Below are positions 1,978 to 44,552 of a DNA stretch of 64,000 nt, one piece after another; position 1 is the first letter of the stretch; the number at the start of each line of letters is the position of its first letter. The notes beneath the pieces were generated by a model. The model was not told where the DNA came from. It searched no databases and was given only the letters and a program-made list of their open reading frames with translations. The position numbers and the translations under genes are program-made. Source of the stretch: Darksidea phi (lineage: Eukaryota > Ascomycota > Dothideomycetes > Pleosporales > Lentitheciaceae). Location: assembly GCA_030770425.1 (NCBI GenBank), contig JASJFT010000113.1, positions 1-64,000 on the forward strand, written 5' to 3'.

Positions 1978-3540
1978 TCACGCGTGCTCGACCGGGTCCG
2001 ACGACCTTGACCGGCCTGACCGCATTTCGATGTCGCTCGCGTTGTCCTCGCTCGTCTTACCGCGTCGTGTCCATAAAGTCTCCAACCCAGATAATATAGG
2101 CCTGCTGTCCGTGTCCTCGTATGCGATGTTGACCGTATGGTCCACGCAGGTGCGCGGCCTGTTCATGTTTTTGGACCCTAACGTTCGTGACGACGACACC
2201 GTGTGGCTCTTTGATTTTGACGATGCTCCGCTCAGACCAATGCGAGAAAGCACTCCTTTCCCATCGTGCGAGCGAAATAATTTCTGCACCGTAGGAAGAC
2301 AGGCTACGAATATAGCCACGCCGAGTTCTACCATACCCCAGTACAATGTTGATGACAAACTCGCTGTTAGATTTCCGTCAGATGAATGCCTAAGGCGGTC
2401 TGCGCGTCATGATTATGAACGAACCGGATCTTTGTTCAAACGTCAAGGGCGGGCCTTGTTTCGTTGAGAAAACACGAGGGGCCAGGAAGGAGAGCCGAAG
2501 CACAGAGGCTACAACCGTGCTTTCCACAAAATTTAGCATCCATCAGCAGCCAGTCAGGTTTTCGTGGGTCTAAGAAACATCGACGTACGCAGAGCCTACA
2601 AGGAAGACGGACATTACACCGATCTTCTTCGTGGTGTTCAGTTTCAACTTCCAAATCTGCAAGCACACGCTCGGTCAGTTTCGCGTTTCGCGTTTGGCGA
2701 GGAAGACGAGAACGAGCGGGACGTACAAATGGCATAGGCAGGATAAGGATGTAAACGTCAAGGATGGCGCTAGTGAGGAAGTTCAGAAACAATATCCACA
2801 GCGTGTCGGGGCAATGCGCCGCGAAAAGCTTAACTGAGCCCCAATTAGAGTTGAAGTGTGTGCCGCACTGGAAGAGCTCGGCGAAGAAGAACGACACGGT
2901 CCATGCCGCGACGATGTATATGGACACGGTGATAAGCTTGCGGGCTTTGTTGACGGAGAAGATGCGCAGGTATAGAAAGAGGAAACTGCATCTAACCAAA
3001 CCCACAGCCAGCGGGTGCAGGAAGAGAAAGGGATATTGGATCTAGTCAGAGTGCCCGTCCATCGTCAGTCACGATCAACCTGAAAGCCTTTCACCAAGTC
3101 TCGATAGACATACCTTTCTTCCCAGTGTCAATTGGGCCATTTCCAGCTCAGCACGGCCATCGGCCCCAGGAGGAATCTTAATCGACCCTCCGAGGGCGCC
3201 CTCAGAAGCGCCATAAGTGAGCATGGAGCCGATGCCTATGGACAAGATCTGCGGTATGTCAGTTCCCACCGAAGGCCGCCACGATGGTCAACAACAGAGA
3301 CACTGACACTGAGGATGACCACGTAGGCCAAGCGAGGCGTCGTGGTTGAAACATCGTCTGCGTGGACGGAGTATTGGTACGTACCGTTGCAGGCACCAAG
3401 AGCCAGTCGTCGGCCATCAGAGGCTGCTTCAAGCTGAGGCGCACCCAAAATTTCGTCGCCACAGTGATGACGTCCACCACTGCTAGAGAGATGCTCGCGG
3501 CGGTGAGGTGTTTACCTGTCTCGAAGTAAACGGAAGCCAT
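1978..3540 (-). CDS. SAT4/PTH11-like rhodopsin-fold integral membrane protein
   Basis: This is a multi-pass membrane protein of the fungal SAT4/rhodopsin family, whose members are mostly uncharacterised and include PTH11-like surface receptors. I read six exons on the minus strand: 3540-3385, 3248-3114, 3041-2727, 2656-2589, 2519-2425 and 2363-1978. Together they give 1155 nt and 384 aa with every junction in phase. Family hallmarks are MADDWLL after the second helix, the FLYLRIF helix end, ILDVYILILPMPF followed by IWKLKLN, VGSATVVASVLRLSFL, and YWGMVELGVAIFVACLPT near the last helix. The tail is polar and serine-rich. Donors are mostly GTACGT or GTATGT; the last one (GTTCGT) is weaker. It lies next to the M20 peptidase and could belong to the peptide cluster or simply flank it. 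Confidence 0.85.
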
Positions 3541-4656: not shown

Positions 4657-5911
4657 ATGAAGCAGGCAAACCTATCGGCGCTGCTCTTCTCCTGCAGCTT
4701 TGCGGTGGTCGCCGTAAGCGCGCAAAGTGCCCCTTCGTACCGCGACAAGCTCCTCTCTCTCCACCAATCGATCGTCGAGATTCCCTCGATATCCGGAACT
4801 GAGGCCGCTGTCGGGAACTTCCTGATTGACTACCTCACAGAGCAGGGTCTTGCCACGGAGCGCCTGTTCCTACCGTCGTCAGAGCGATTCAACGTTCTCG
4901 CATGGCCAGAACGGCGCGCGTCCAATCGGTCTCGCATCATTTTGACGACGCACATTGACGTCGTACCACCATACTTGCCATACTCACGCTCAGGGCCTGA
5001 GCCGCCAACGGCCGAGACGGTCATCGCCGGCCGCGGTACCTCTGACGCAAAGGGCTCTGTGGCCGCGCAGACGCTGGCGGTGCTGGAGCTCATGACTGCC
5101 GGCTCTATTAACGGCGACGATGTGATGCTCGTCTTCGTTGTCGGCGAGGAAGTAAATGGCGATGGCATGATTCACTTCTCGGACGTTATGACAAAGCGCG
5201 GCACCCGGCCCAGCGTCGCCATCTTTGGCGAGCCTACCAACAGTACCTTGGCCTGCGGTCACAAGGGAGGCATGGCCTGTAACATCCTCGCAAAGGGCCT
5301 ATCTGGTCACAGCGGTTACCCTAAGTCTGGGAAGAGCGCCAACGAGGTGCTCATGCGTGCCCTTGTGAAGGCCATCGACGCTGACCTCGGCAACAGCGAG
5401 CTCTACGGCAACACCACTGTCAACGTGGGCTTGATGGCAGGCGGCGTCGCCCCCAATGTCATCCCTGATGCAGCAAACGCTTCGCTCGCAATTCGCGTCG
5501 CCTTAGGACCCCAAGAAACCGGCCACGTCACCGTGAGGGACCGGCTCCAGGAAATCCTGATTGGCGTTGATTCAGAGGCTTTCACACTTGAGTGCCCCTT
5601 TGGCTTTGGAGTCGTCGATACCAAATGTGACGTGGATGGTACGTTTTTGCCGCCGCTCATGCGGAATGGATCTAGAAAAAGAGAAAAGTACTGACCGCTC
5701 ACCAGGTTTTAAGACCGACGTGATGGCATATGGTACAGATATTCCCAGACTGCAGGGTAATCACACACGATACCTTTACGGGCCTGGGGATATTCTGAAA
5801 GCCCACACTGCCGATGAGTCAATCACTCTAGGGGAACTAGAGAGTGCAGTCGAAGGCTACAAGAAGCTTATCATGAATGAAATTGAGCCTAAGGAGCCTA
5901 ATAAGTGTTGA
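4657..5911 (+). CDS. Secreted M20-family metallopeptidase (carboxypeptidase PM20D1-like)
   Basis: Predicted zinc-dependent exopeptidase of the M20 family, which trims peptides or N-acyl amino acids using a two-metal site. Two exons, 4657-5638 and 5706-5911, are joined across a 67-nt intron (donor GTACGT) and give 395 aa. The start is chosen because it gives a signal peptide (residues 1-22, ending VSA before QSAPS); the frame is open upstream of it but uninformative. Metal-site motifs are intact: HIDVVPP (His99), GRGTSDAKG (Asp130), GEEVNGDG (Glu164-Glu165), GEPTN, GHKGG, and SGHSGYP in the lid domain. The C-terminal GPGD segment is also present. It lies 340 bp tail-to-tail from the UstYa-family gene. 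Peptidases are regular members of dikaritin clusters, so trimming of the peptide product is a reasonable inference; a general nutritional role is the alternative. Confidence 0.9.
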
Positions 5912-6251
5912 AAATGGACCATTAGGTGGTCTTGTATACCTCCGTATCTCGGGGAGAACAGAGATTTCTGAACTCAGTTTTAATGTAGTAGTCCTTAGAT
6001 TTTGAACCTTTTACATTATAACATAAGAGTCTACTAGTAATGATCTGTATGGCCAGATGTCTTTGGAATAGAGCTAAAAACTAGCCATGAATTTAACTAA
6101 TATAATAGTAATTAAAATGGTCTTAGAGCGTTACTGAGTAAAGGAGTTCTTTGTTTCATTTTAATAGACTATGCATATAACCCTAGACCTCCGCTGATGA
6201 ACGAACGATTTAGCCCGTCTGCGCTTAGAGACCAGATAGTTAGATTAGCCT
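5912..6251. other. Convergent intergenic spacer
   Basis: AT-rich spacer between the convergent M20 and UstYa-family genes. It should contain both 3' untranslated regions; nothing else is visible. Confidence 0.5.
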
Positions 6252-7306
6252 TCATCCATCCTGATTCAAGATGCTATAATCCGACACATCAACCATGCGG
6301 GACTCCGCGAACGCACGCAATTTGTCCCATTTCACACACTCGTTCGTAGTATCCCTTTTTGATTTCGGAATACCGTCGTCCCACGTGAAGAAGGCCAGTG
6401 TTGGGTCTCCCCGGCACATAGCCGCCTCACGGAAATACTCCAAGCAGTGGTCTAGCCCGTCGGTCAGTCGGTCAGTTCCTGCACATCTCGCTGAGAATCT
6501 CTGCATGAGTCAACATACCTACGTGGCCCCTTTCAAATTCCAATTCATATTCATTCATGTTGCGGAAATCCATAGTCAAATGCTCGCGAAGGTGTTTCTG
6601 TTACCATGTGAGCTTTCTTGTTGTAAATTGGTGCTTTCAGTGGGGAGAGGTACGTACCACGCAGTGGAGCTCATGGAACACAGTCATTTCAGCCAGATAA
6701 CCTGATCCATCCCTGAAAGAGATGGATGTCTCTCCCAGTCGCTCAAGCTCGTCCTTCGATATCTTCAATGCCATTGCTATGAAACACAGTGAGCATCGGC
6801 TTAAGTGTTAACCAACAGAAGGGGCGCTTCTGTAACAAAAGTACATACGCTTGATGAGTTCAGCCCAGGCCTCGTCCATCGCCTTGGTACGCTTGCCAGC
6901 AAACACATTCTCCGACTCGATTGACCTGTTCAAGACCACCCTCTCATATTCAATGGCCGCAGTACCCGGTGCTACGTTGGGGTTAGTGTTTCTGTCTCTG
7001 CAAACCGCGAGCCGATGCCCGTCCACCGTTTGTCTTACACCATACAAGCTGGGGCCGAACGCAAGAAGAGCCTGATTCCTGTGCGCCCCTACTGTTGATA
7101 CTGGCCCACCAGGCACCATTTGAGAGAAAAATGAGTGCAAGGAGCACAATGTTCAGAGGGCTGGGAAAACACCTTCGAACTGATGATGGTGGGCCTCGGA
7201 TATCCCCTACAGATATTTCCGATCCCTTCTCGTCATCCACGAGAAATGGGGCTTCCTCATAGGCCGCATCGCCTTTCAGATCTCCACGTGAGAAATCCAA
7301 ATTCAT
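6252..7306 (-). CDS. UstYa-family oxidase (DUF3328), candidate RiPP cyclase
   Basis: UstYa-family proteins are membrane-anchored oxidases that install the side-chain cross-links of fungal RiPPs such as ustiloxin, asperipin and phomopsin; some act in other pathways. Five minus-strand exons, 7306-7039, 6971-6849, 6776-6658, 6597-6519 and 6451-6252, sum to 789 nt (262 aa) in perfect phase. The acidic N-terminus is followed by one membrane helix at about residues 50-69. Next come WSPGTAAIEYE, the KRTKAMDEAWAELIK segment, FRDGSGYLAEMTVFHELHCV with the first HxxHC (165-169), and GHVDHCLEYFREAAMC with the second (195-199). This order and spacing match the family. No frame in a single exon shows the second motif completely, because the 67-nt intron 6452-6518 splits it. 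The gene is 1.25 kb from the precursor peptide gene and transcribed away from it. Confidence 0.92.
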
Positions 7307-7439
7307 TGTGAATGGAGGGAAGGGCTGGGGAATAACCAGAAAACTCCGGCAAATGGAATATGTAGTCGTGGTTCTAGACAGTTCTGGGCCTAGGGATACT
7401 TGGTTGTCGAGAAAAGGATTCACCATAAACCTCAGCTCA

Positions 7440-8334
7440 ACGATGTTGGGGTTATTAGTCCGGCGGTCGCAATGCAGTTGACTAGCGCCGCTCGGCTACT
7501 ACTGCATAGAACCTCACATGATGTTTCCAAAAAGGCAGCACGAGTAACTTGCGCGCTCTGTAGCACCCACGGGCCATCTCCACCCAGTAGTGGCACATGC
7601 ATGTTATTCACAATGCCAAGAGTATTAATATCGACCTTGTAAAGACGGGATTAAGCGCATACGGGGAAGATATTGTTGCCCTTCCACGAAACGCAGCGTA
7701 GACAAGACGCCCTATTAGTTTCGATGCAGTCATGCTAAAATTGGGAAGGAGGTTGCAGGGGCTATGGGACGAGACTTATGCAGCTATTTGCCAAGTCCCC
7801 GATGCATATGCAAGGTCGGTGTTTATCGATATCAGGTTCAGCCTTATCGGATCCAACCTCATCGAATCCAACCCCATCAGATTCAATCTCATCATCGTCT
7901 CAGTTGAAACTCAGACAGCAGAGCCTTCCAAGCTGGAATAAGATAGGGTACAGGGTCGGCGTCTAAGCTGACTAAGATGACCTCGTCAGACTCGACTAGC
8001 AGCAACAGATATTACCTTGTAAAGGCACTCGCCAACAATACTTAGAGCGCAAATCAGATGATAATTTGCATACTTGGCATGTACCCAAAGGAACCTTGTC
8101 CGCGAATGTGCATATGCAATACAACACGATTGCAACCCCACTAATTCTTAGAATCAGAGAAACTATTCTATCTCGCGTGAGACCGCTTCTTTCTCCATTT
8201 TTTTTGTCCCGGGGGGTTTGACGGCTTACCTTTAACTGGTCACTCTCTTGGTCACTGGTCAGACCCCTCATGCTAAGACGGAAAAATCTCCATGTTGGTA
8301 CAAAAGACACTGCGGGGACTAAGATCGAAAGCAT
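7440..8334 (-). CDS. Possible single-pass membrane protein, unresolved or decayed
   Basis: The minus strand has an open frame at 8334-7996 with a short basic stretch and one convincing membrane helix (ILRISGVAIVLYCICTF), followed by a cysteine-rich patch. A GTAATA donor after VPLQ can join to an open segment that ends soon after LLSEFQLRR. A separate minus-strand open segment of about 60 codons lies at 7440-7630. I do not recognise the protein and could not join all pieces. An N-terminal helix followed by a lumenal domain is the UstYa layout, so a decayed UstYa paralogue is one possibility, but no HxxHC motif was found. Confidence 0.25.
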
Positions 8335-8556
8335 GAAACTTTAGCACGTGCCTGATTCGGAAGGGCTAATTGTCTGAAATCAAGCGTGAGCATTCCAATG
8401 CCTCGTTGATACATATGTATCTCGTCGCGACCGCCTATACTTGAAAAATTACTGAACAAGAATTTGCTTCCATAAGCTACACAGCCCACAACAGCAGTCA
8501 CTATTATCTTGAATACAAGCAACCAATCCTGCCTTTGCAAGTTGTCTCTATACAAT

Positions 8557-8865
8557 ATGAAGCTCTCTTTGGTCCTTCTTAGCGTGGCGGCGGGCGCTCT
8601 GGCTGTACCACTGATGAAGAGTAAGTGCATTCGACGCATTAAAGATCGTACTGTGAGCTCTGGTCACATCTAATGAACTGCATCAGATAGCCCGCAAGAC
8701 GTTGACGAGATGGTCGGGAACCTCTGGCATGCGAAGGACGATCACAAGAGGAGCGGCTCTGATGAGGTCGTTGGGAATCTCTGGCATACAAAGGACGATC
8801 ATAAGAGGGGCGATTCTGATGAGGTCGTTGGGAACCTTTGGCATGCAAAAGACGATAGCAATTAA
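8557..8865 (+). CDS. RiPP precursor: signal peptide plus three Kex2-bounded 19-aa repeats
   Basis: Candidate precursor of a ribosomally made, modified peptide (dikaritin-like). Two exons, 8557-8620 and 8687-8865, flank a 66-nt intron (GTAAGT donor, TCTAATG branch, CAG acceptor) and encode 80 aa. Residues 1-16 are a signal peptide (MKLSLVLLSVAAGALA). The rest is three repeats of 19-residue period with an invariant VGNLWH core followed by [A/T]KDD. Repeats one and two end in HKR, a Kex2 site; the last ends DDSN at the C-terminus. The region before each core is acidic (DEM or DEV). Signal peptide, tandem near-identical repeats and KR cleavage define fungal precursors such as UstA, PhomA and kexin-processed repeat proteins. 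The adjacent UstYa-family gene, peptidase and transporter make the RiPP reading the best one. The exact core boundary is not known; GNLWH is the invariant segment. Confidence 0.88.
8704..8862 (+). repeat. 57-bp coding repeats of the precursor (3 copies)
   Basis: Three in-frame copies start at 8704, 8761 and 8818; the third is truncated at the stop. Copies differ at few bases, mostly silent changes (for example AAC/AAT and CTC/CTT within the GNLWH codons), while GNLWH is unchanged. This suggests duplication followed by selection on the peptide. Confidence 0.95.
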
Positions 8866-9709
8866 AGCGATGGCAACTTGCGATGTGAGTGAATTATGCA
8901 GAACTCAGCGTAGGAAGAAAGTTAGGCCGCGGAGAGCGATGATGACGATGTTGAATCTAAAGCTGCCAGTTTCCACTGTAGATCGAAAACTTGACATCGG
9001 GTGCAGCCTAGGCAGTGAGGAGATGGTATTTGATGTTTGAGATGATTTTATATACGGTTTTGCCCTCCTATAATCTGTCTGCCATCTTGATTGCCAAACT
9101 TGACTCTTGATATTGCTAGACGCTCGGTAGTCTATTCGGAGCCTACTTGTATGTTTAGGCCAGATCAACACTAGCGGGGGCTTAAAATTACGCCGTATTA
9201 CTGCCGAAACGTAGCCACATCTCTTTTGAACTATCTCAGACGGAGACGGAGGCCCCACCGAACAGGCCCTAATTAGCCGGGATGACATGCGCTGTGCCAC
9301 ATCTTAAAAAAGTCCCCCAATTGACATAATAAAAGCGTGCCCACCGGTGAGTCTAGGACAATAAACTCATTTGTCACATGTCCATCACCGGAAATGCAAA
9401 GATATGAGCTCCGGAACGCTGAACGCATGCCCTTAGGACCTATGCAGGTCTTGATTTAGTCCTCTCAAAGACAACCCACTGCCAAGGCCTACGCCGTAGC
9501 ATTGCATCACAATATCGCCACGGACACAATATTGCATTCTTACCGCTGGGTATTACTACCACGTCCCTAATTCATCCCCTTACTTACTTGATATACAGCT
9601 CCTATCGCAAGAACGGTACGTATTAGTGGTCAATCCGCATCACGGAGATATTTAACGAATCAACATTAGAGTTTCTTAACGACACACGCACATTTGATCT
9701 ATAACACCG

Positions 9710-11489
9710 ATGGCAGTCATAGATTCCACAGCCAAGTCACTGTCTGCAGATGCTCTAAATCCATCTCCGCTGATTTCATCCTCGGAGACAAATGGTGAAT
9801 TGGAAAAACAGCCAGGAAGGTCCAACGACAAGCAAGGACAAGGAGCGCCTGAGCCAAATGACAACGTGGAGGCTGGGGAATCCGTTGCTGACAATCCTAC
9901 ACTGGCTGCCGGAAAGTTGTCAACGGCACGAAGAGTCTCCATTATTGCTATACTAGCAAGTCTATATGTGATAAACACCTTTGGCACTGGCATTCTTGTA
10001 GCCGCTCTCCCGCGCGTGGCCCTTGATGTCCACCTCTCCGAAGCCTTGATTCTCTGGCCTATCGCCGTCTACAATCTCGCCGCAGGATGTTTGCTATTGC
10101 TATTCGGCGCCGTCGCTGACATCATCGGCACCAAGCTCATGTGGCTGACCGGTACCTACCTGTATATCGTGTTCACCCTGGCCGTCGGTTTCTCTCGTTC
10201 TGGCATCCAAATCATCATGTTCCGCACGTTCCAGGGTGCTTCCATTGCCATGAGCCTCCCCACCACCGTGAGTTTCATCGCCAATACCTTTCCCAAGGGG
10301 AACTGGCGTAATGTCGCTTTCGCCATTGTTGGCATTGGATCCCCACTGGGCTTCGCTCTAGGCCTCGTTCTTGGTGGTGTCTTCACTGACACAGTCGGTT
10401 GGAGATGGGCTTATTACATTACCGCTATAATTAACTTTCTAATATCAACTTCAGCTGTGTGGTTGCTGCCAAACGTTGACCACGCCTACCACTCCGATTC
10501 CCGCATCCGTCGCCTCACCCGGGACATTGACTGGGTTGGTACAATCATCATAAGCGCTGGCCTGGGTCTGCTACTCTACATCCTGGCTGCAATCACCTCC
10601 AGCTTGCGCATCCGGGACCCTCAAGCCATCGTATTGCTCCTGCTGTCTGGTTCTCTCATTCTTCTGTTCCCCTTCTGGATGAGACATCAGACACGGAGAA
10701 ATCGACCGGCTCTTATTCCAAACAGACTGTGGCGTAATGCTGTCTTCTCTTCCATCTGCGCTTGCGTGTTCCTTAGCTGGGCTGCCATGAACTGCATCCA
10801 ATACTTGACTACACTATAGTAAGCTTGCCAACCACATCACCCCCAAATCCCCCAGGATATCTGACAGGACTCGTTCAGCTTTCAACAGATACAGAAGACC
10901 TCAGCGCTTGAGAGCTCGCTGAGGTTCATTCCCCATGTGTGTTCAGGCGTCTTCATCAATGTGTTGACAGGCTACCTTGTCTCGCGGGTCCACATTCAGA
11001 AGCTCGCCGTCATATCTGCCATAGTGACGGCGGCGTCTCCTGCGTTGATGGCCACTATGCCTATCAACTCTAACTACTGGTTCGCACCCTTCTGGGCCCT
11101 GGTGCTGTCGCCCATCAATCCAGATAGTCAGTGTGTCCCAAGCAGTATGTTCCATCCTATTTTGCTAACAGAAAATGGCAGCACTGTTCACAATTTCGAA
11201 CCTTGTAATTTCGGACGCATTCCCTTCTGACCTTCAGTCGCTTGCTGGTGGGGTCTTCAGCGAGATCGGCCAATTTGGGAACTCTGTTGGCCTGGCCATA
11301 ATCGCCGTTATCGCTAGGTCCGTCTCGGAGCAGTCAGATGCCACCACACACGAGGCCTGGCTCATGGTGGGCTTCAGGGCCGCCTTCTGGACAATCTTTG
11401 CCGGCTGTGTGGTTGTCATCCCTTTGAGCTTCTTTGGACTGCGAAAGGGGGGCCTAATCGGAAAGAAAAACCCCGAAGTGAGCCGGTGA
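9710..11489 (+). CDS. MFS drug:H+ antiporter-type exporter
   Basis: Major facilitator superfamily exporter at the plasma membrane, similar in layout to toxin and multidrug efflux pumps of the DHA2 group. Three exons, 9710-10818, 10879-11126 and 11182-11489, give 1665 nt (554 aa), in phase. A polar N-terminus of about 75 residues is followed by about 14 hydrophobic segments. Visible motifs include the motif-A-like GAVADIIGTKLMW loop and motif C-like GIGSPLGFALGLVLGG in the fifth helix, then WRWAYYITAI. Later segments are SSLRFIPHV and SPINPDTLFTISNLVISDAFP. The first acceptor (TTCAG at 10878) is chosen because nearer acceptors create a stop at the junction. It is transcribed in the same direction as the precursor, about 0.85 kb downstream, and is the obvious candidate to export the peptide product. 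Confidence 0.9.
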
Positions 11490-12990: not shown

Positions 12991-14518
12991 ATGGCGCCTG
13001 CCCCGCTACCGGTTCCTGCACTCTTCCCTCCGGGGGATGGAGCGAATCACACCTGGCCAGCACCGAACTTCGTCAATCCAGAGACTCGGAGTTGGACGGC
13101 GCCAGTATGCATCATGATACTCTTTATTATTTCGTCGGTGGTCTTCGCCGCTCGCATTTGGGCAAGGTTCCGCATCACGGGGACGCGGGGCTTAGATGAT
13201 TGGCTTATTATCGCGTCGATGGTGCGTTATTCCCCATCAAAATCTACATCGGCGCTGATGCAGCTCCAGCCTGGGTTGCTTGGTCTAACGCTATCGACTG
13301 TTCTTGGGCTCCGTGTGTATGGCTTCCAGCTTCACATCTACGACCAAACACCAAGGACCAACATCACAATTCGCCAGGTAACTTTGAGATCCACAACTCG
13401 AGAAATACTACATTGACCTCACGGCTGCAGATCACGCTCGCAATGGAAACCATATACCTAGGTACAACAACCCTTACCAAAATCTCCATCCTGACGTTCT
13501 ATCGGCGCATCGCCTCATCGCTCATTTCTCGGCCTATCATGATATTCATCTGGGCTTCAATCATCTTCGGTAAATCTTCCCGCTCTCTTCACCCCACTGG
13601 ACCAGGCTGATACAGATGTAGTTGCGGCATATGGCATCTCGTCCATTTCGGTTATCATATTCACTTGCTGGCCAGTCGAGGCGTACTGGTACCGCTTCAG
13701 CACATGGTGGCTGGAGACACATACTTACAAATGCCATGACGAGCTTACAACTCTCGTCGTAGTAATCAGCATCAGCACGGCTCAAGATTTCATTGCATGC
13801 ATCCTTCCCATATTCGCTATCCGTAAACTCCGCCTTCCACGCCGGCAGAAGTGGGCTTTGGCCGCTGTTTTTGGTATGGGTTTCCTGTAAGTTATCCACA
13901 ACTTAAATTGCTAGAAGTGGATGCTGAGAGGAGAACTCATTTAGCACCTGCGCAACCGGAGCCCTCCGCGTCCACTATGCCCATCGCGTATACCATTACG
14001 TCCACTCGGGATCTCTAACATATGACATCTCGTGGGAAGCATTTGGTGCATGGATCGCCACGGCCGTTGAAGCTAATCTGGCTGTCATATGCGCTTCCGC
14101 TCCAGCCCTCAAAGTTTACTGTAGTTGCTTCGACTCAACGCGCCAAGAAGTTCGATCGTTTGGGTGGTACAATGACCGATCGCGTCCGATTTCGGCCTCC
14201 ACGTGCTGGAGCAAAGGCGAAGGCTCAGTTAGATTGAAAAAATTGTTTTGCTGCTTCATAGAAGACGCCAGTGACAGAAGTTGTGGAAAGAGAACGGGGG
14301 CTTCAAACAAGACGAATGATTCGGGTATGGCTTTGGGATCGCGGACTATATTTGAGCGAGAGGATGAGCCTCAATATTGCGAATTCAATTCCGGGCGTAG
14401 AAAAGCTGGGAGCCCTGAAGACATTGAGTTACAGAGTCGAGACCAACAGATGCGGAGGGATAGGACGCCGTTAGCGATGAATCAGCCTGACCAGGTCCAG
14501 TTACTACGGCAATCTTAA
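12991..14518 (+). CDS. SAT4/PTH11-like rhodopsin-fold integral membrane protein
   Basis: Second member of the SAT4/rhodopsin family in the window, clearly different in sequence from the one at 1978-3540. Exons 12991-13377, 13431-13569, 13616-13886 and 13945-14518 give 456 aa. An optional in-frame 42-nt intron at 13222-13263 would make it 442 aa, and I cannot decide between them. Hallmarks: GTRGLDDWLIIASM, TVLGLRVYGFQLH, METIYLGTTTLTKISILTFYRRIA, IFTCWPVEAYWYRF with Cys and Trp near the third loop, ACILPIFAIRKLRLP, CATGALRVHYAHRVY, and EAFGAWIATAVEANLAVICASAPAL before the last helix end. A hydrophilic cytoplasmic tail of about 120 residues follows. It could sense host or peptide signals, but nothing in the sequence fixes a ligand. 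Confidence 0.88.
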
Positions 14519-20722: not shown

Positions 20723-23046
20723 TCAAGCAAGGTAAATCTGCGTCGTTGCTTGATCCCCAAACCAAGGCTCAACGGTGGTAATCACGCCCATGCCTAGTCG
20801 TTGGAACCTACCCAGATCGTCCTCTGACCCTGGTACTAACAACACCCACTCTCGATAGAGCCTTCTGCTCACGGCTTCTATCGTATTCCTCTTTGATAGC
20901 GTCTTTTTCATGAGTAGTATGCAGCGTAAGCCAATATTGGGGGTGTCAGGTTCGTCGAGGAGCGCCCAACCAATCACTGCGCCGTCTTCGCCGCGTATGT
21001 AACGCTTTTGGTTATCGGGTGGGGTTCCATGAAGCACCTTTAGAGGTGCAAGTACTTCTTCTGATGTAGCATTCTTCCACTCTTGTTGCTCCGTAAATGG
21101 TGCGAGTTTTGGTATCCGTTTGAGAGCGCCACCAATAACCAAGGTCTTGCTGCCCTCATCAAAGTGGAGTTTAATACATGGCTTAGGTTCACCGGTAATA
21201 CCGCTAATGTTGTTAAAGAGAATGCTGCACATGGTGCTCGCCCACGTCCAGGTCGGGGGGTTTATTCCACTCTTCGCTCGCTGTGCAGGCTTGAGACAAT
21301 ACCAAAGCAAATGCATGGGCATGTCATGATTCCACAGCCCAAGGCAGTATACACTACCTTCCCTTTGCTTACCAACCTCCGAACGGACGCCTTCTAGAGC
21401 GGTAAGTCGGTCGCTAGGCTTGGTAAATAGGCGAGCTGCATGCTTTTCAACAATGACTCTCCATCGGGGATTTCGGCATGTGGTGTGGAACGAACTGCCT
21501 GTCTCGCGTTGATTGATTTTTCTGCATGACCAGATAAGGTTGCTGGGCGTGTAGAAGATGATTCGGCGGGACATCAGTAACTCCTCGGTCGCATTAGCAT
21601 GAGATGCAAGCGGGCTATGTTCGGGCAGGACCCGAAATTTATCGTTAGGTTCGAAGCCCGCAAATATAGAGCCTTCGGGCTCGCCGGTGCGAGAAACGTG
21701 CTTGAGCTCGATGTCTGGTGGCAACTCTGGACGCTGGTAGAAACAAGGCTCGCTGGTATTGGTCGCATGAGAGGCGGCAATGGCAAGGCGGGCACTTTGA
21801 AACACAGCACCCTTGCGCGATAATTCGTGGAGACAATCAGCATCAGAGTCTTGAACAATACATAGCGAATCGATCCAGATGTATTCAAAACCAAGACGAT
21901 GTGTGGCGGAGATGGCGTCTTGATAGGTTTTTGGTAATGCCTCCCAGGGAATGCCGGCAATGTAACTCTTCAGCGTGGTCTGGGTCGTCATAAGCGGAGG
22001 ACTATCGGCGGGATTTCCCCAGCAATGGCTCAACGCCACATAATGCCCAGTCTCGCCATTGGTTTCAATAAGACGCGGGCATATTGCCTCATTGGGACTA
22101 CCGATGTGGATGATACGTGTAGGCAAAATTGGAGGCGAGGATTCGTCGATTTCGGCCTTGGAAAGAGCCTTTTTGCAGGCATCATGCTTAGCCAGACAAT
22201 CACTCATCCACCTGTTGATGAGGCTATAAGCCTCCGGCGAGTCCGAGGATGGTAAAGGTGGACGACCGATGATATCGCAGCTGAGAGCGGCTGGGGTACC
22301 TAGTAAGTCAAGTTAGTACTGCGTGTGGGGTCGGGATTGGCCTCTATGTCTCATTGAACAGTCTCTAGTGAGTATGGGGGCTTTTAAGGCTGCTAGGCTG
22401 AGCATTCTCCCGAAGACATCACCCCACTTTGCTGTTGGACGTGAGAAAGGATGCAAACAATACCTGGTAGAGCGAATAGTCTGACATGGCCTAACATGAA
22501 ACCGTGCTCGATAGGCACTAATACCCTGATGCCGTATACGTAGGCGGCCTCCGCTACTTCTTCCCCCGGAAACGCCGGTGGGCCATCGCGCGGAACGGAT
22601 GGCCGCAGGTAGATTGGATCGTCGATTAGGTGTTGCTGGAGCTGAGCTATATCTCGCTCGCGAAGTACGTCGGACATGCCTGCAGATGTATAGCGTTGTG
22701 GCGATCCTCTCGATAGGTCTTCCTGGGTCGCTGTCCGGCGTGCTGGGCTGTCATCTCCACGCTGGGCAACATGTGGCGGTGTGTGGCTACCACACCCTTC
22801 CAAAATGGCGTATAGAATCAGCCGGCACATGGAGCAACTCGCAGCTGATTGTGGTAGCGCTCTGGCGTCAGGGAGGTGTACCATGCCTCTGGGTTTTGAC
22901 TGGCCATTACTCTGTCCCCACCAATCTGGGAGAACGTCCAGTTCGCATGTTAGATTCGGTATATTGATCGTCTGACAAGCCGAGCAGAGGGCCGTCGTGG
23001 TAGGGGTAGTGGCGTCGCTTTCGCCGAATCCGGGTGGTGAAGCCAT
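20723..23046 (-). CDS. HET-domain protein (heterokaryon incompatibility type)
   Basis: HET-domain proteins act in non-self recognition and can trigger cell death after hyphal fusion. Exons 23046-22464 and 22299-20723 join over a 164-nt intron and give 719 aa in phase. The start is the ATG at 23046 (MASPPGFGES); the frame above it opens only with TTG. The N-terminal 190 residues contain two CxxC pairs (CSACQTIN and CSMCRLI), a common prefix of HET proteins. The HET domain follows with GHYVALSHCWG, LPKTYQDAISATHRLGFEYI, WIDSLCIVQDSDADC and KGAVFQSARLAIAASHA, the three conserved blocks in order. WRVIVEKHAARLFTKPSDRLTAL and a C-terminal TWTWAS also fit. No attached NACHT, WD or ankyrin domain is present. 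Confidence 0.92.
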
Positions 23047-35081: not shown

Positions 35082-38000
35082 ATGGCTTCGTCGGCGAAGC
35101 ACTACCTCCAGCAGGCAGGCAACATATTTCATGGTTCGATGCAGGGCGGTGATGGCGGCGTCCTGTTCGCCGGCAACGTGAACAACCATGGCGGTACCAT
35201 GAATATCCGTAAGCGCACACACTGTTTCAATGCTGTATGTTTCCACGTCGGAGTGTAACTGTAGGGTTTCCTTTGAGCAGGGTTATTATCCTGTTCTCTG
35301 CCTATATCTGCTTTGAGGACCCCTGATTTTACCCTCAGACGTGGTAACTTACAAAAGAGATGTATCTCGAATGGCTTGACCTAACGATATTTAGAAACAT
35401 ACATGAAAAGTCTGGAAGAGCGTTTGAGGGAATGTCGCACGGCACTGCACCTCGGCTGGACGGATCCCTACGAAGATCGTGCCAAGATCATCTCTGTCAA
35501 AACTAAAAGAGGGCGGATTATTACGGCCCACTGCGAATGGATTATCAGCCATCCATTGTACAAAGCATGGGAGAATACTCGCACTCCTTCTCAGCTGCTC
35601 TGGATTACCAGCACGGAGGAACGCGGCAAGACCATGATGGCGATCCATCTCAGTAAGGAGCTGGAAAAGCTTGCCAGAACTACCACAGCGACTACGGTTC
35701 TTTACTTCTTCATTGAAAGACAAGACAAAAAGGGTACAGCGGTAGACGTGCTCATGGGTCTTATCAGGCGTTTCACAGAGGTGCATGCAGACCTAATCAA
35801 CCACTTATTTGAGGTTTACGACTTGCAGAAGGACCAGCTGTTCGGTGCGAATGGCATCGAGGCTCTTTGGCGGATCTTCATGAAAATGGTCAGTGACACG
35901 ATAGCAGGCCAAGTGTACTGTATCATCGATGGTCTGGACTACTGCTCCGATGATTCCCTTCGACGGCTAGTAGGGCTAATAACGAACTTCTTCCTTGATG
36001 AATCACAAACCGTTGTAGACGAAAACACGAATGCGGACCTGTACAGCCAGGGGCCCTCCGGCAGCTACGCATCACCATACAATCAAGCGAGTCCTTATCC
36101 ACACGGAGCGCCTCCCGGCTATCCTCAAACCAGCCAAGCAAGTCCCTATCCAGAGAGTCCGTATCCTCAAAGGACGCCTTCCGGTCCTAGCAGCGCACAG
36201 AGACGTTACGGACCAAAACGTGGTGCTGGGCTAAAGATGATCCTTGTTAGTCGACAGAAACCTGAATGGATGGTAGATCAGCTCTCTGAATTTCCGCGCA
36301 TAGACATTGGTGTTCGCGGAAGAAAGAATGGCGCTATCAGTGGGTCAGCAGCTCCGAAGCCTGGGAGAAGAGCACCAACACTGGCGGATGTTGCTACTAC
36401 AGTGATGCGAAGGCAGACACAAAATAAAGGAAATAGCAGTGCCTCTGCGGAGTCTCAGATATTGTCGACACACACGCAGGTCTCCACGCCGAATCCACTC
36501 CCACCGCTAGAGCCAGGGAGCTCTTCGCACGCGATATCCCAACCACCCCACGCAATCTCGTCAATACAGACGCCCTCTGTGCAAACATCAATTTCCACAG
36601 CGAACGCACTCCTTTATCCAAAACAAAACGGCAGTTCTATAGGACAGCTGTCAAACACACAGACCCAGAATTCAATAATTCCCTCATCTCCACCTACCTG
36701 GCAGGACAACTCGAGCACTATCCCTTCTGCTAGGCCGATTTCACCTCCTGCCACTCCAGCCCCTGCTCCTAGACCGTCTCTGCCTACCACCCAACCATAT
36801 CAGCAGGACGCACCACCCGCTCAGCCACAGGTTTTCGAACTTGATCCCTCTCCTGCCATCAAGTACAGTAGTGCCTATCTATCAACCTCTGTAGCATCAG
36901 TCCTTGATGAATCTCAGTACACGGAAGAGCCACCCCAGTACGCTCAAGAGGAAACTAGTACGGCATACGGCGACGATAAGAAGGATGAGAATGGTAGCGT
37001 AGGTGTTGACATGGACTTCGAGGATCCAGCACTCCGACTCTACATCGAAGCCAAACTGGAAGAACTGGCAGTCGAGCGACAATACCCGACAGAGATACAG
37101 TCATACATCATTACCGCCCTTGAACACCGAGGAGACGACACTTTCCTCTGGGTCGATTTCGCTATTGAGGAGATCCGAAAAGTCGACCTTGCCCACATCG
37201 AAGCTGTCTTGAACTCCATTCCACCAACGCTAACTGAGATGTACATATACATACTCTTGAACATCCCGCCGGGGCTCTTAGACCTTGTAGCTGGACTACT
37301 ACGCTGGACAGTTTGCGCGAAGCGACCCTTAGACCTCTTGGAGTTGACTTTCGCGTTGAATTTGTCGCATTATCATGCTAATGATGCGACGAACTACCTT
37401 CTCAATGCGATATATGCATGCGGCAACATGTTAACAGTTAGTTCAGAAGATGGAACGGTCAACATTGTCCACAGCTCACTCGTTGACTTCTTGAGTGGAG
37501 CATCTTCGCCGATTCTTGCGGATCCTCGGCTCTCTAGATTCGTCATACGTCCTACACAAGCCGACAGTGACATTGCCAATTTCTGCATTTCTTATTTGGA
37601 GGCTGGTTGCTGCAAAGAAGGTCCGATCTGTCTAGCCGAGAACGAAGTGCACTACAACCAACGTGTCGCCCAGTTTCCCTTCATGCCCTACGCAGCCAGC
37701 TTCTGGGCGGAACATCTCCGAAACGCAGTGGTTTCATATCTCAATCTTTCTTCACCGTTCTTCCAACCCAAGTCAGCGATCCGGAAGAACTGGTGGCAGA
37801 CATATTGGGCTTTCTCCACGGGAAAGGGGACCGGGTTAGCACCCATGAACTTCACACTTTTGCATCTTGCGGCGTATCTAGACCTTGTTCCACTTGCGCA
37901 GCATATGATGCAGAAGGGGGATCTGCCCTCCAGATTGGACAAGAGAGACTCACATGGCTATTCCCCAATAGACTACGCTGTAACCCGCGGCCATTCAGCC

Positions 38001-40253
38001 ATGTTCCAATATCTCATCCGCGCAGGGGCCAGCCAGAAAGGCAACGGCGAATCCTTGTTAGAGCTTGCGTGTCGGAAAGGGCAGCGAGAAATCGTATCCT
38101 TACTGATTGATATGGGCTACAACGTCAACATGCGTGCCAGAGGTATAACAGTCAAGGAAACCATGTACTTTATGACGAAATGGCTTCCTGGTGTTATAAG
38201 CGAAGGCCTAGAATACGACCGCGATGCCTGGAGTTTGATGTTTCGAGACGTCGGAATAGATGAGTTGACACCATTAGGCCAGGCGGCTATATTCGGACAC
38301 AGTGCCGTTATTGAGTTGTTACTCAATCGAGGCGCGATTGTAGATGCCGGTACTACTAAAGGATTTACGCCTTTACATACTGCGTCGTATACTGGGCAGA
38401 TGGAATGCGTTCGGCTTCTCATTGACCGGGGAGCTACAATAATGGTACGGACGGTAGATCAATGGCTCCCTCTTCATTTCGCGGCTTTGAGAGGAAAACT
38501 TGCGGTTGTGGAATTTTTCCTTAACCGGGGTGTTCCGATTGAGTCGATAACGGTCAAGTTGAAAAGTGCACTTCATTTTTCTGCTTATGCGGGTCATGCA
38601 GATGTAGTACGCCTTCTTATCGAGCGAGGCGCAAACGTCGAGCTGAAATCTCACAAAGGGGAAACGCCGCTCCATCTTGCTACAAGGAATCTGAAGCCAC
38701 AGGTCGTCGAGCTCTTGCTCTCGTTCGGCGCGAACCGGGCTGCTGTTACCAATGAGGGAAAGACTGCTCTCGATCTTGTGCAGACGTCAACGACTATTCT
38801 TGGACAAGAGTGTAAGAGAATACTGCAGACGTTCGGATCCCAAGGATATACGCCATGGACGCCGCCGCAAGCTCCCGGTGCAGCAACAGCAACTGGAACC
38901 ACAACTGCAGCCGGGACAGAAACAGCGTCTACGAGTAGTACTTCTACTGAAACACGACAAGGCCCAATGGAGCCAATGTCGGTGCAGAGATTTACGCCTG
39001 CACAAGCTCCGAAGTCTTGGCCCATTCAAGGATTCCAAGCCAATGTCTCTTTGCATCGGGAGTTTTTACCAGCTCAACCTACACCAGAGAACACATATGC
39101 TGCAGGGGCCCATGCAATGCAACAACCAATAAACACAGGACATCCTTCAAATTCTCAGCCGAATTTCCATCAGACCCAGCCGCAACCTGTACAAGGACAA
39201 TCAAAATTCACTTACGATGCTCAGGCGACCTTGCAACAACAGTTTACAGAGTCGCAGTACGCTACGCCTTTCGACTCGCCATCGGGGCCTCCTCCACCAT
39301 ACACACCGCCTGCCGCGGGCAGTAACGTGTACAATTCTTCGAATTTCCCGGAAAAGTCACCCTCTGCAACCATGTCGACGAGTACATCAAGTGCAAATCT
39401 ACGGCAAACACCGGATGTGCAGTCAGCTATTCCAGCTCACCAAAGATCAATGGACACTCCCCAGAATAACGCCACCGCCCCAGCAACAGTATCTCAACAG
39501 TCTACTGGGCAATTGGGTATGATTCAGATGATGAATGCGATGCCAATATCTAATAGAGCATCTACATCGACGCAGCCGTCAGCAGTACCGAATCCTTCTC
39601 AGCCATCGTTCACGCCGCCTTTTACTCACTCTCAATCATACCCATCACCAAATCCTCCAAATCGGTCGGCATCAATGACTTCGGCGTATTACCCATCTCC
39701 CGTTCCAACTATCCAAACACCCGTATCTCCCTTGACCGTCCCTCCACAGCCCGCAACCGCACCACCCATATCATCCTACCAACCCCCCTCCTCTCCAGTA
39801 TCGCCTATGCAATCCTATCAGCAACAATATCAACCCTCTCCTCAAGTTCCCCAGGCGCAAAACACCCGTAGTCATTCTGTTAACACGAATCCCTATACAC
39901 CATCGCCAACCTCGCAGTTCCTTAACCCAAGCCCAACGCCACCGTATTCACATCAGCAGCCACAACCAACACAATCTCCTCAATTTGCAGGGAATACGAC
40001 TGCAAGTACGTATAACTCGTCGTTCGAGTACAGTGCGCCAGCGGTTGTGGCACCGTACAATCCGAACATTGGACAAATACCAATGGGAGGACCAGCAAAT
40101 GGCGGTGGATATTGGCAAGGGCAAGTTCAAGGACAGCAGATGAGTAATCAAGGAGGGCACGGAATGGGAAATGGAATGTTATTTGCGCCACCGCCTACCA
40201 CACCGGTGCTGCAGAAGAAGAAAAGTTTTCTTGGAGGTTTGAGGGGTGGATAA
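35082..40253 (+). CDS. NLR: sigma amyloid motif - NACHT - ankyrin repeats - disordered tail
   Basis: Large STAND-type receptor of 1661 aa. Exon 1 (35082-35208) is joined by a 186-nt intron to 35395-40253, in phase. Exon 1 encodes an N-terminal amyloid signalling motif (residues 14-42, with NIFHGSMQ and GNVNNHGGTMNI) like the Pfam NACHT_sigma domain. The NACHT part follows: QLLWITSTEERGKTMMA, with GKT at 120-122, where Ser replaces the first P-loop glycine. Then come VYCIIDGLDYC as Walker B (216-225), LKMILVSRQKPEW as the sensor strand, and TFLWVDFAIEEIRKVD through a winged-helix-like region. Low-complexity insertions interrupt NACHT at about 250-320 and 350-585. Ankyrin repeats occupy about 861-1184 (for example DELTPLGQAAIFGHSAVIE and GETPLHLATRNLKPQVVELL). 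A Pro/Gln/Ser/Thr-rich tail fills 1185-1661. Ligand binding by the repeats should trigger oligomerisation and amyloid templating of the adjacent SesB-like lipase. Confidence 0.9.
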
Positions 40254-40973: not shown

Positions 40974-42535
40974 GATTTACCTTGTAGGACTAACTGTCGT
41001 CACCCTCGTACGTATTAACCAAGCAGTACATTCAGATTACTAATACTTAGTACTTTGCCCACTCCTTCATATACAACCTATACTTCCACCCTCTGGCAAA
41101 CATCCCCGGTCCCCTCTTTTGGCGGTCTTCGCGCCCGGGTTTCATATGGTCTATGGTACGGGGGAATCTAGCTCGAGATATCCGCAAAATTCACGAGCAA
41201 TATGGCGACATTGTGCGTACTGCACCTGACGAGGTCTCGTTCGCTCGTAAGGAGGCATGGTTAGAGATATTTGGACAGCCAACCGGCGGAGCATTGCCAT
41301 TTTACAAGAACCCCATTTTCTTCAAGAGTCCGCCTGGTCAACCAGAGAACCTTGTCACTACTATCAATCTGCAGGAGAACCAGCGCATGCTACTCGCGTT
41401 CACTGAACGAGCATTGCGCGTGCAGGAGTCGGTCATCATCAAGTATTCGATATTCTTGATGGATAAACTACAAGCAATGGCGACCATACCAGAAACGGTT
41501 GATAAAGGTGCGGACGTCAACATGAATGACTGGGCCAACTTCTTTGCATTTGATCTTATCGGAGATTTAGCCATGGGCGAAAACTTTGGGTGTATGGAAG
41601 GCAGTTCCTACCATCCGTGGGTGAAGATGCTATATGCCTATCTCAAAGGTGATGTGTCCCTCTTTGCTCAATCATTAAGGCTTATGAAGTATAGTCATGG
41701 TAATGCTCGCGGCAACTCGCTACTACCCGCTACTCGAGAAGATCCTCATGGCTCTCATCCCCTCGAGCATGAGGAAGATTCAACGACGAATGAACTCAGA
41801 GAAGTCTCGCGACGACTTCATGACTTCTCCAAGATGAGCCGTGAAGAAGTAGAATCCACGTATCAGATGCTTATCATCGCGGGCAGTGAGACCACAGCTA
41901 CAGTGCTCGTCGGCACCATCAGCCATCTTGCCCAAAACCCAGACAAGAAGAAGAAGAAGCTTGGAGATGAGATTCACGGAAAATTCACTACTTCCAACGA
42001 CATCAACGTAGCCTCCACCAAGGACTTGACGTATCTGACCGCTTGCATTGAAGAAGGGCTCAGACTTTGCAATCCTATTCCTGCTGGTTTACCACGATGC
42101 GTACCATCCACTGGGGCGACTGTTTGCGGACATTGGCTTCCAGTACATGTAAGCACCTTTTCGTCATACACTGGGCAGTGGCTGGCCTCATCATAGACGA
42201 ACGTTATTGTGAGCCCCACGGATATTGCGCATAACCCGAAGAACTTCCAAAGAGCTGCCGAGTTTATTCCCGAACGGTGGCTCCCTGCTGAAACATGCCC
42301 ATCGGAATTCCTCAATGATGCGCTCGACAGTCAGTTCCCTTTTGGTACTGGTCCCCGTCATTGCCCTGGAAAGCTGTTGGCATGGTCCGAGATTAAGATC
42401 GTACTTGCAAAGCTGCTGTTCCAGTTCGATGTTAACGTTGTGCCGGATAAGCTACTGGTTTGGGAAGATCTGGGGACTTTCATTGTCGTTGAAAAAGAGC
42501 CCATTTACATAAACATCAAGCCAAGGGTGATTTAG
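40972..42535 (+). CDS. Cytochrome P450, with a locally frame-shifted segment
   Basis: Membrane-bound haem monooxygenase resembling fungal CYPs of secondary metabolism. Exons 40972-41007, 41051-42148 and 42197-42535 keep one open frame of 490 aa. The short N-terminal helix leads into FIYNLYFHPLANIPGP and IHEQYGDIVRTAPDEVSF. I-helix AGSETTAT, ExxR (EEGLR), PERW (FIPERW) and the haem loop FGTGPRHCPG are all intact. Between about 41690 and 41825 the open frame reads nonsense, while the +1 frame reads ATRYYPLLEKILMALIPSSM and then MRKIQRRMNSEKSRDDFM, the expected P450 sequence. So two compensating frame changes enclose about 45 residues. Either the gene is damaged, a very short intron is involved, or the sequence has indel errors. 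A KKKKK run (AAG repeat near 41946) sits after the I-helix. Confidence 0.8.
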
Positions 42536-42844: not shown

Positions 42845-44552
42845 TCATATAGCGCTGTTCATCATAGTTCCGTCAATAGTGAAGCTGCGCAGCGTGACGC
42901 TCCCGCCGCGGGCCTTGGAAGCAAAATTGAAGACGCCGTATCGCCAGCCCATGAAGAAGACCTTATTGTTCACAATTGTCACGTTGTTGCCGAGGTTGGT
43001 GAATGTGGTGCCATCCGTACTGTACTGGAATCTGCCCTGGTCTGTGCCGGGCAGCACGTTGACCATTGTGCGCAGCCAGATGCGCCCGCCGCTGATGTTG
43101 GCGCTGGCCACCTGCGAGCCCGCGTTGCTCGGTTTCCAGCCGCTGTCGGCGAGCGCCACCCCGTTCCACATCGACACCCGGAACGAGCTGCCGTCACGGA
43201 TCACGCCAATCCAGCCGGCAGTGTACTGTAAAACCAGAAATATACCAGTCAGCTTTCTATTAAGAGGTCGCATACTGACGTTGACAGAGATATACTCCCG
43301 CACAACGCCCACAACGGAAAATGAGGACAGGGATGATGAAATAGGAGATACATACGTCAAAGAGCACCAGACCGGCACGGTCACCATCTGCCATCTTCGA
43401 GTAGTCCAGCTGGATGGTCAACGTCGAGGAAGGTCCCAGGATGCGATGTGTCAGAGTGTTACGTGCCGAGAAGAAGTTGTCCGTGACCGTGACCGTGCGC
43501 AGCTGCAAGCCACTGTCCGTGAATGAGTAGGCCGAAGGGTCCGGGTTGTGATTCCACTCATATTGTGGACCGAGCGTAGTGCCATTGAAGGTATCCGTAC
43601 CAACAACCGACTTGACAGCATGCGGAGTCAGCGGATACGGGTATTGCTTGGCCCACTGGCCGTTGACAAGCCGCGCTGACGGCCAGCCGTCGGATGACCA
43701 GTCAACTGGGGCGAGCGCAGGGAGGCGACCGCCCGGATAGGCGTCGATAAAGGCCATGTGGTACCAGGTGCCGTTGGGCAGATCGACCAGTCCTCCCTGC
43801 CTGGGCACTCTGGCGCCGGGAAGGAGGGCACCACCGTTCCGAACCAGCCACTTCCACGTGTAGGGTCCCCAGGGACTGCTGCCCTTGAGGATGATGTTGC
43901 CGTCCATCGGGTGCACTCCGAGGATGTAGTACTGGCCGCCGCGCTTGTACATGCGCCAGCCCTCCACGTAGCTCAGCGAGCTCTCCGTCGTCCAGACCTG
44001 CTGCCTCTTCAATTCTTTGCCCTCTGGCGAGAGCTGCACCACATAGAGATTTTTGGTATTCCAGCTAGTCAGGAAGACGACGTACATAGTGCCGTCATCA
44101 TCGACGAGCATGCCGCAGTCGTAGTAACACGAGTTAATGACATTGATCTTGGACCAAGGTCCCTCTGGCGAACTGGCCTTGTATATATGTGTCTTGTAGT
44201 CGTTGGTAATGCAACCGCCCCAGTACCAGGATTTAAGCTTGGCGTTGTAGTTCAAGAAGGATGCGTATATACCGGCATTGTAGGCCGTGCCGCCCGACAT
44301 GTTGTACGAGTTTCCTGGGCTGAAGTCGAGCCACGGCACCGAGTGTGAAAAGTACTCCCAGTTGACTAGGTCATACGACCGAAGGATCGGAGCGCCTGGG
44401 GAGAAGTGCATGGTACTGGCGGAGTAGTAGAAGGTGTCGCCTTGCCGCATAATGTCAACATCGGCAAGATCCTGATAGAGAACCGGGTTGTTAAAGAGTT
44501 TTTGAGCCGAAGCTCCGAGAAGCAAGGCGCTGAGCACCACGAACCCGTGCAT
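42845..44552 (-). CDS. Secreted GH43 glycosidase (beta-xylosidase/arabinofuranosidase type)
   Basis: Extracellular five-bladed beta-propeller glycosidase acting on arabinose- or xylose-containing plant polysaccharides. Exons 44552-43356 and 43225-42845 join over a 130-nt intron in phase and give 525 aa. The start is the ATG at 44552, giving signal peptide MHGFVVLSALLLGASA; the frame above opens only with TTG. Catalytic features: ADVDIMRQGDTFYY with the general base Asp31, YDCGMLVDDDGTMYVVF with the pKa-modulating Asp, and YVEGWRMYKRGGQYYILG with the general acid Glu. From about residue 325 a concanavalin-like C-terminal domain follows (YEWNHNPDP, LTIQLDYSKMADGDRAGLVL, WIGVIRDGSSF, FNFASKARGG), as in GH43 enzymes with a C2-type accessory domain. 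Its presence suits a plant-associated or saprotrophic lifestyle. Confidence 0.92.

Follow-up and report, generated by a model that had tools for sequence, protein, structure and literature searches.

A four-gene cluster at the start of contig C17 of the Darksidea phi genome is best read as a small dikaritin-type cluster for a ribosomally synthesised and post-translationally modified peptide (RiPP), a reading to which we assign a probability of about 0.78. The window analysed here, 64,000 nucleotides long, is the beginning of this 146 kb contig (the genome comprises 51.35 Mb in 477 contigs). The cluster spans positions 4657-11489 and includes genes for a secreted M20-family enzyme (+ strand), an oxidase of the UstYa (DUF3328) family (-), a repeat-containing precursor peptide (+) and a major facilitator superfamily (MFS) transporter (+). 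Dikaritins are defined as RiPPs which derive from Kex2-processed repeat proteins (KEPs) and are cyclised by UstYa homologues (PMC10512285). Judging by sequence, the genes called for by this definition are present, while cyclisation of the core by UstYa is putative here. A preliminary description of this DNA had placed the four genes at these positions; all four gene models give complete proteins, and all eight introns, 55-72 bases each, are of the GT...AG type. The nearest named relatives of the cluster genes belong to Pleosporales (protein database searches, lineages checked for four species).

The precursor gene (8557..8865, + strand, exons 8557-8620 and 8687-8865) codes for 80 amino acids, starts 1.25 kb away from the UstYa gene and matches no Pfam family. 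Its product opens with MKLSLVLLSVAAGALAVP; the N-terminus is hydrophobic, ends in ALAVP and was judged to be a signal peptide by eye and by a hydropathy window. The units DEMVGNLWHAKDDHKR, DEVVGNLWHTKDDHKR and DEVVGNLWHAKDDSN have two KR sites between them and carry three copies of the consensus DE[MV]VGNLWH[AT]KDD: repeat 1, DEMVGNLWHAKDDH (8704..8745), is followed by the first Kex2-type KR site (8746..8751), repeat 2, DEVVGNLWHTKDDH (8761..8802), by the second one (8803..8808), and repeat 3, DEVVGNLWHAKDDSN (8818..8862), ends the protein without a KR. The number of repeats and the protein length thus agree with the preliminary description, which had taken all three repeats to be KR-bounded; this does not hold for the last one. 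A six-frame scan found repeats beside dibasic sites in one frame of the 64 kb (10/11 identity), and none of 100 second-order Markov sequences reached 7/11 identity, the best value being 6. This repeat pattern stands far above chance. Three pairwise comparisons of the 13 repeat codons within the window gave 11 synonymous and four non-synonymous differences, and the GNLWH codons gave four and none, respectively; these are low numbers from comparisons that depend on one another. No second copy of the precursor was found in the same genome, leaving a single locus.

Searching a database of 5.77 billion proteins for relatives of the precursor gave 76 candidates, three of them below E 1. All three belong to Pleosporales: Lentithecium fluviatile (61 amino acids, 3e-25), P. 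nodorum (61 amino acids, 2.7e-19) and Massariosphaeria phaeospora (62 amino acids, 2.3e-18), each with two repeats. Across the four species, all nine repeats share G, N, L, W and H, with variation at several of the flanking positions, so that GNLWH, named earlier as the repeat core, is indeed invariant. The conserved block is nevertheless longer: one D before GNLWH, as well as K and the last D after it, are also the same in 9/9 repeats, and the core is therefore not delimitable by conservation alone. Tyr is absent from all four precursors, and Trp and His are the sole aromatic residues of the one in the window. Invariant His and Asp in all repeats would also suit a secreted peptide that binds a metal such as copper or zinc, with Trp-His and the Asp/His-rich flanks as ligands and UstYa modification being secondary. 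We consider such a function highly improbable, as no metal-transport family was found among ten window open reading frames scanned with Pfam (a subset of the window genes) and the acidic flanks may be plain spacers.

The UstYa gene (6252..7306, - strand) has five exons (7306-7039, 6971-6849, 6776-6658, 6597-6519 and 6451-6252) and codes for 262 amino acids with a hydrophobic N-terminal helix; a structure model of the L. fluviatile relative has one long N-terminal helix (50-77) over the hydrophobic stretch. The product matches PF11807 (E 5e-44), and the two HxxHC motifs described previously are both intact: HELHC (6661..6675, - strand) lies close to the end of exon 3 and HVDHC (6444..6525, - strand) is split by the intron 6518-6452. 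All 22 aligned homologues keep the H, H and C of both motifs. In 2025, a DUF3328 macrocyclase dependent on copper was reportedly described. The search with UstYa gave 25 matches in all, the closest ones from L. fluviatile (91%), P. nodorum (85%), M. phaeospora (82%), Corynespora cassiicola (81%) and Periconia digitata (64%). The remaining 20 are 41-60% identical and include many from Xylariales, with the exception of a metagenome fragment (75% over 32% of the query). All three species with a detected precursor homologue carry a UstYa relative of at least 82% identity.

For linkage in the relatives we used listings that state the size of the longest contig for each protein, and equal size was read as the same contig. 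The L. fluviatile precursor (P0001), UstYa (P0004), M20 (P0029) and MFS (P0031) proteins are all listed on a 407,925-base contig. If this contig makes up less than 1% of a genome of similar size, the chance of three genes joining the fourth there is, as a rough estimate, one in a million. In M. phaeospora, the precursor (P0003), UstYa (P0007) and M20 (P0030) are all listed on a 301,046-base contig. Precursor homologues without UstYa genes nearby had been named earlier as something that would speak against the cluster; the precursor and UstYa share a contig size in two of the three species that have a precursor homologue, and P. nodorum has both genes. Several other sources combine cluster genes with no precursor detected. 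Metagenome contigs of 121,444 and 187,211 bases carry MFS with M20 and UstYa with MFS, respectively, and a 1,289,270-base contig of Xylariaceae sp. AK1471 carries UstYa with MFS; these co-listings add support to the cluster. UstYa, MFS and M20 of Periconia digitata are listed at 4,988,348 bases, which is weak evidence because this contig is chromosome-sized. On this basis, the precursor and UstYa form the firm pair, and membership of M20 and MFS is less certain.

The M20 gene (4657..5911, + strand, exons 4657-5638 and 5706-5911) codes for a secreted exopeptidase/amidohydrolase of 395 amino acids with matches to the catalytic (PF01546, E 1.4e-15) and dimerisation (PF07687, E 5.6e-16) domains, both over the cut-off. 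Among proteins of solved structure, those closest to it in sequence are ArgE/DapE-type deacylases, so its activity on peptides is left putative. The MFS gene (9710..11489, + strand, exons 9710-10818, 10879-11126 and 11182-11489) codes for 554 amino acids, with PF07690 matched on exon 1 (E 2e-28). The presence of both genes beside the precursor, as initially described, is borne out by these matches. M20 relatives are found in L. fluviatile (91%) and M. phaeospora (88%); the MFS relative in L. fluviatile is 91% identical over the query piece and matches TIGR00711 (efflux_EmrB, DHA2) below the model cut-off. When the M. phaeospora M20 and MFS proteins were used as queries against the window genome, C17 gave 86% and 88%, and the next-best places gave 44% (M20) and 43-48% (MFS). 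Of the M20 and MFS copies in this genome, those in the window are by this measure the ones of the cluster type.

Several observations weigh against the reading as a dikaritin cluster. The sharing of contigs in the relatives is read from equal listed sizes, gene spacing being outside the listings. The M. phaeospora MFS is listed on another contig (128,830), and so is the M20 of Xylariaceae sp. AK1471. Two species in which UstYa had no match possess M20 relatives (Aaosphaeria arxii, 85%; Periconia macrospinosa, 73%), and the P. nodorum M20 is counted on 136 contigs, far above MFS (12), UstYa (8) and the precursor (4). The M20 gene may therefore live independently of the cluster too. Neither M20 nor MFS of C. 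cassiicola is among the 120 of 1245 matches listed, which were drawn from the 7998 best-sharing candidates. Most of these points would be expected if only the precursor and UstYa belonged together, with M20 and MFS as bystanders. A two-gene cluster of this kind would be compatible with dikaritin production; we regard it as unlikely, since all four genes share the 408 kb contig size in L. fluviatile, M20 and MFS share the 121 kb metagenome contig size, and UstYa, M20 and MFS of Periconia digitata share one as well, with the weakness mentioned above. The disparity of counts among the P. nodorum proteins (P0032, P0044, P0005 and P0002) may be an effect of the database, or the genes may be present in some isolates and absent from others.

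To the same side belong features of the peptide and its distribution. Two of the five close UstYa relatives, those of C. cassiicola and Periconia digitata, come without a precursor in the homologue search; their precursors may be unannotated, diverged or absent. GNLWH is embedded in the longer conserved block and does not abut the KR site. Tyr, present in 65.6% of the repeats of DUF3328-linked KEPs, is lacking here, and Trp is not enriched beside DUF3328 (20.5% versus 24.5% without DUF3328; both from PMC7329392). A linear Kex2-processed secreted peptide, such as a signal, an effector or an antimicrobial, would account for some of these features: a conserved block exceeding GNLWH is what a linear ligand would have, its precursor could do without Tyr, and most KEPs surveyed (6120 of 7878) lack a neighbouring DUF3328 gene (PMC7329392). 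UstYa would then be a conserved neighbour with another substrate. We find this distinctly unlikely, given that a UstYa relative is present in all three other precursor species and is listed at the same contig size as the precursor in L. fluviatile and M. phaeospora. The alpha-pheromone motif of Pleosporales, PYG[L/M]P[I/V]G (PMC6339444), was tried as a candidate and is absent from the precursor sequence, repeats included. In support of a dikaritin cluster, DUF3328 genes are commonest directly adjoining KEP genes (PMC7329392). We therefore retain the dikaritin-type cluster proposed in the preliminary description, which is well supported at the gene level.

Under the dikaritin reading, the precursor would enter the secretory pathway at the endoplasmic reticulum, and membrane-bound UstYa would oxidise a side chain within the GNLWH block. 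With no Tyr in the precursor, the Tyr ethers known from ustiloxin, phomopsin and asperipin cannot form here. Trp and/or His, the only aromatic residues available, would be the likeliest sites of modification, by cross-linking or by oxidation of a C-H bond. Kex2 would cut after the KR sites to give units of about 18-25 residues (the genome has one match to the P-domain of Kex2-type proteases, PF01483), and the flanks would be trimmed by Kex1-type enzymes, perhaps also by the secreted M20 exopeptidase. The MFS carrier would export the product or protect the producer. Computed [M+H]+ values are 626.3045 for linear GNLWH, 796.4100 for VGNLWHA and 1895.8518 for SGSDEVVGNLWHTKDDH; loss of two hydrogens would give 624.2889, 794.3944 and 1893.8362, respectively.

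The genome includes further UstYa genes: 31 exon matches to PF11807, once merged, mark 24 places spread over 22 contigs, a lower bound. Thirty of the 31 matched exons were scanned with flanks of about 1.5 kb, together with three other loci of 8-10 kb. Within this limited reach, a repeat precursor with dibasic sites was found at just two UstYa places, the window's own and one on contig C452. The scan undercounts: with 1.8 kb between it and the closest UstYa exon that had matched, the window precursor was detected via the window and the loci L001/L002 rather than via the UstYa loci. The C452 precursor (L032 2717-2989, G000:C452) is a 90-amino-acid Kex2-type protein with three VLNSRFAKYQAE-type units containing Tyr and with EAEP spacers; a UstYa match lies about 1 kb away. 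This precursor has no detectable similarity to the one in the window and probably marks a Tyr-type dikaritin locus, a useful comparator within the same genome. Other repeats were seen at L006, L030/L040 and L041. At L043 (G000:C426:227500-235500), a UstYa-like sequence with L. fluviatile P0018 as a relative looks degraded by eye, with frames broken around the motifs.

Outside the cluster, the window has a fragmentary gene with a fungal-rhodopsin domain (2436-3540, - strand; PF20684, E 1.2e-14 for 2436-3005), which we take to be Pth11-like, and a stretch at 12991-13416 (+) which resembles it by eye and has no Pfam match. A HET-domain frame (20723-22207, -) and a 1616-amino-acid NPHP3_N-ankyrin frame of NLR-like architecture (35403-40253, +) belong to families linked to fungal self/non-self recognition. 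A cytochrome P450 frame (41153-42196, +) and a GH43 frame with a GH43_C2 domain (43260-44561, -) are located about 30 kb off the cluster.

Among known systems, the four-gene layout is closest to the asperipin-2a cluster of Aspergillus flavus, which likewise has four genes, coding for a precursor, a single UstYa homologue, a transporter and one further enzyme (PMC6514808). The fourth gene there is of the isoflavone-reductase type, where the window has an M20 peptidase, and the FYYTGY core uses Tyr ethers; without the reductase, this core or any Tyr, we did not assign the window cluster to the asperipin-2a subtype. Ustiloxin and phomopsin share with it a signal peptide, repeated cores, KR sites and UstYa proteins. 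Their clusters have a Y-x-I core, a tyrosinase, S41 peptidases and two and five UstYa genes (PMC7329392, PMC6514808), whereas the window cluster has a single UstYa gene and no tyrosinase match on its contig, and a Y-x-I core with a Tyr ether is excluded by a precursor with no Tyr. The lack of a visible tyrosinase had been pointed out before; a six-frame search found 27 tyrosinase matches genome-wide, a lower bound, and none on C17. Later work accepts dikaritin clusters without a methyltransferase, and one dikaritin, victorin, is also produced by a member of Pleosporales. The original dikaritin description comprised five genes, methyltransferase included (PMC12048977), and a 2022 review counts only five reported dikaritins (PMC10512285). 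Victorin of Cochliobolus victoriae resembles the window system in its multi-core Kex2-type precursor, cluster-encoded peptidases and a ring not closed through Tyr (PMC9233826). It differs, by its description rather than by comparison of gene sequences, in being chlorinated and closing its ring on Phe and Leu, as opposed to Trp/His here.

The dikaritins described in PMC7329392, PMC9233826 and PMC6514808 are joined via Tyr, or via Phe in victorin. The core GNLWH is unlike the characterised ones and lacks Tyr, which speaks for the new class suggested in the preliminary description; novelty is reduced by victorin, closed via Phe (PMC9233826), and by the KEP survey of PMC7329392, where the same architecture is found and W-containing KEPs with DUF3328 neighbours are already counted. 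GNLWH, VGNLWHAK and NLWHAKDD had no match in the texts of the papers searched, supplementary lists lying outside this search, so a prior listing is possible. The surveys required at least three repeats (PMC7329392) or at least four fragments (PMC6339444). By both thresholds two-repeat homologues would drop out, and by the latter the window precursor with its three fragments would be excluded as well. Similar precursors with few repeats may thus have escaped both surveys where they lie next to an orphan UstYa gene.

No fungal UstYa product joined through Trp is evident from the titles and beginnings of abstracts of the papers listed on this topic, and to our knowledge no characterised UstYa product has Trp/His cross-link chemistry. 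We tentatively propose, while thinking it somewhat more probable that the chemistry is different, that UstYa forms a cross-link via Trp and/or His, e.g., Trp-His or Trp/His to the adjacent Leu, Asn or Val, and that the window precursor is the first of a low-repeat group filtered out by the surveys. Moroidin is named in PMC12186524. In plant moroidin-type burpitides, Leu-Trp and Trp-His cross-links are made by an enzyme that uses copper and has His residues in pairs. These BURP-domain enzymes belong to a different family from UstYa, and the likeness is an analogy only. If the proposal is true, a UstYa enzyme would link the side chains of Leu-Trp-His in parallel to the BURP cyclases of plants. 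A UstYa partner conserved with a Tyr-free Trp-His core offers a small, testable system for the reach of UstYa chemistry.

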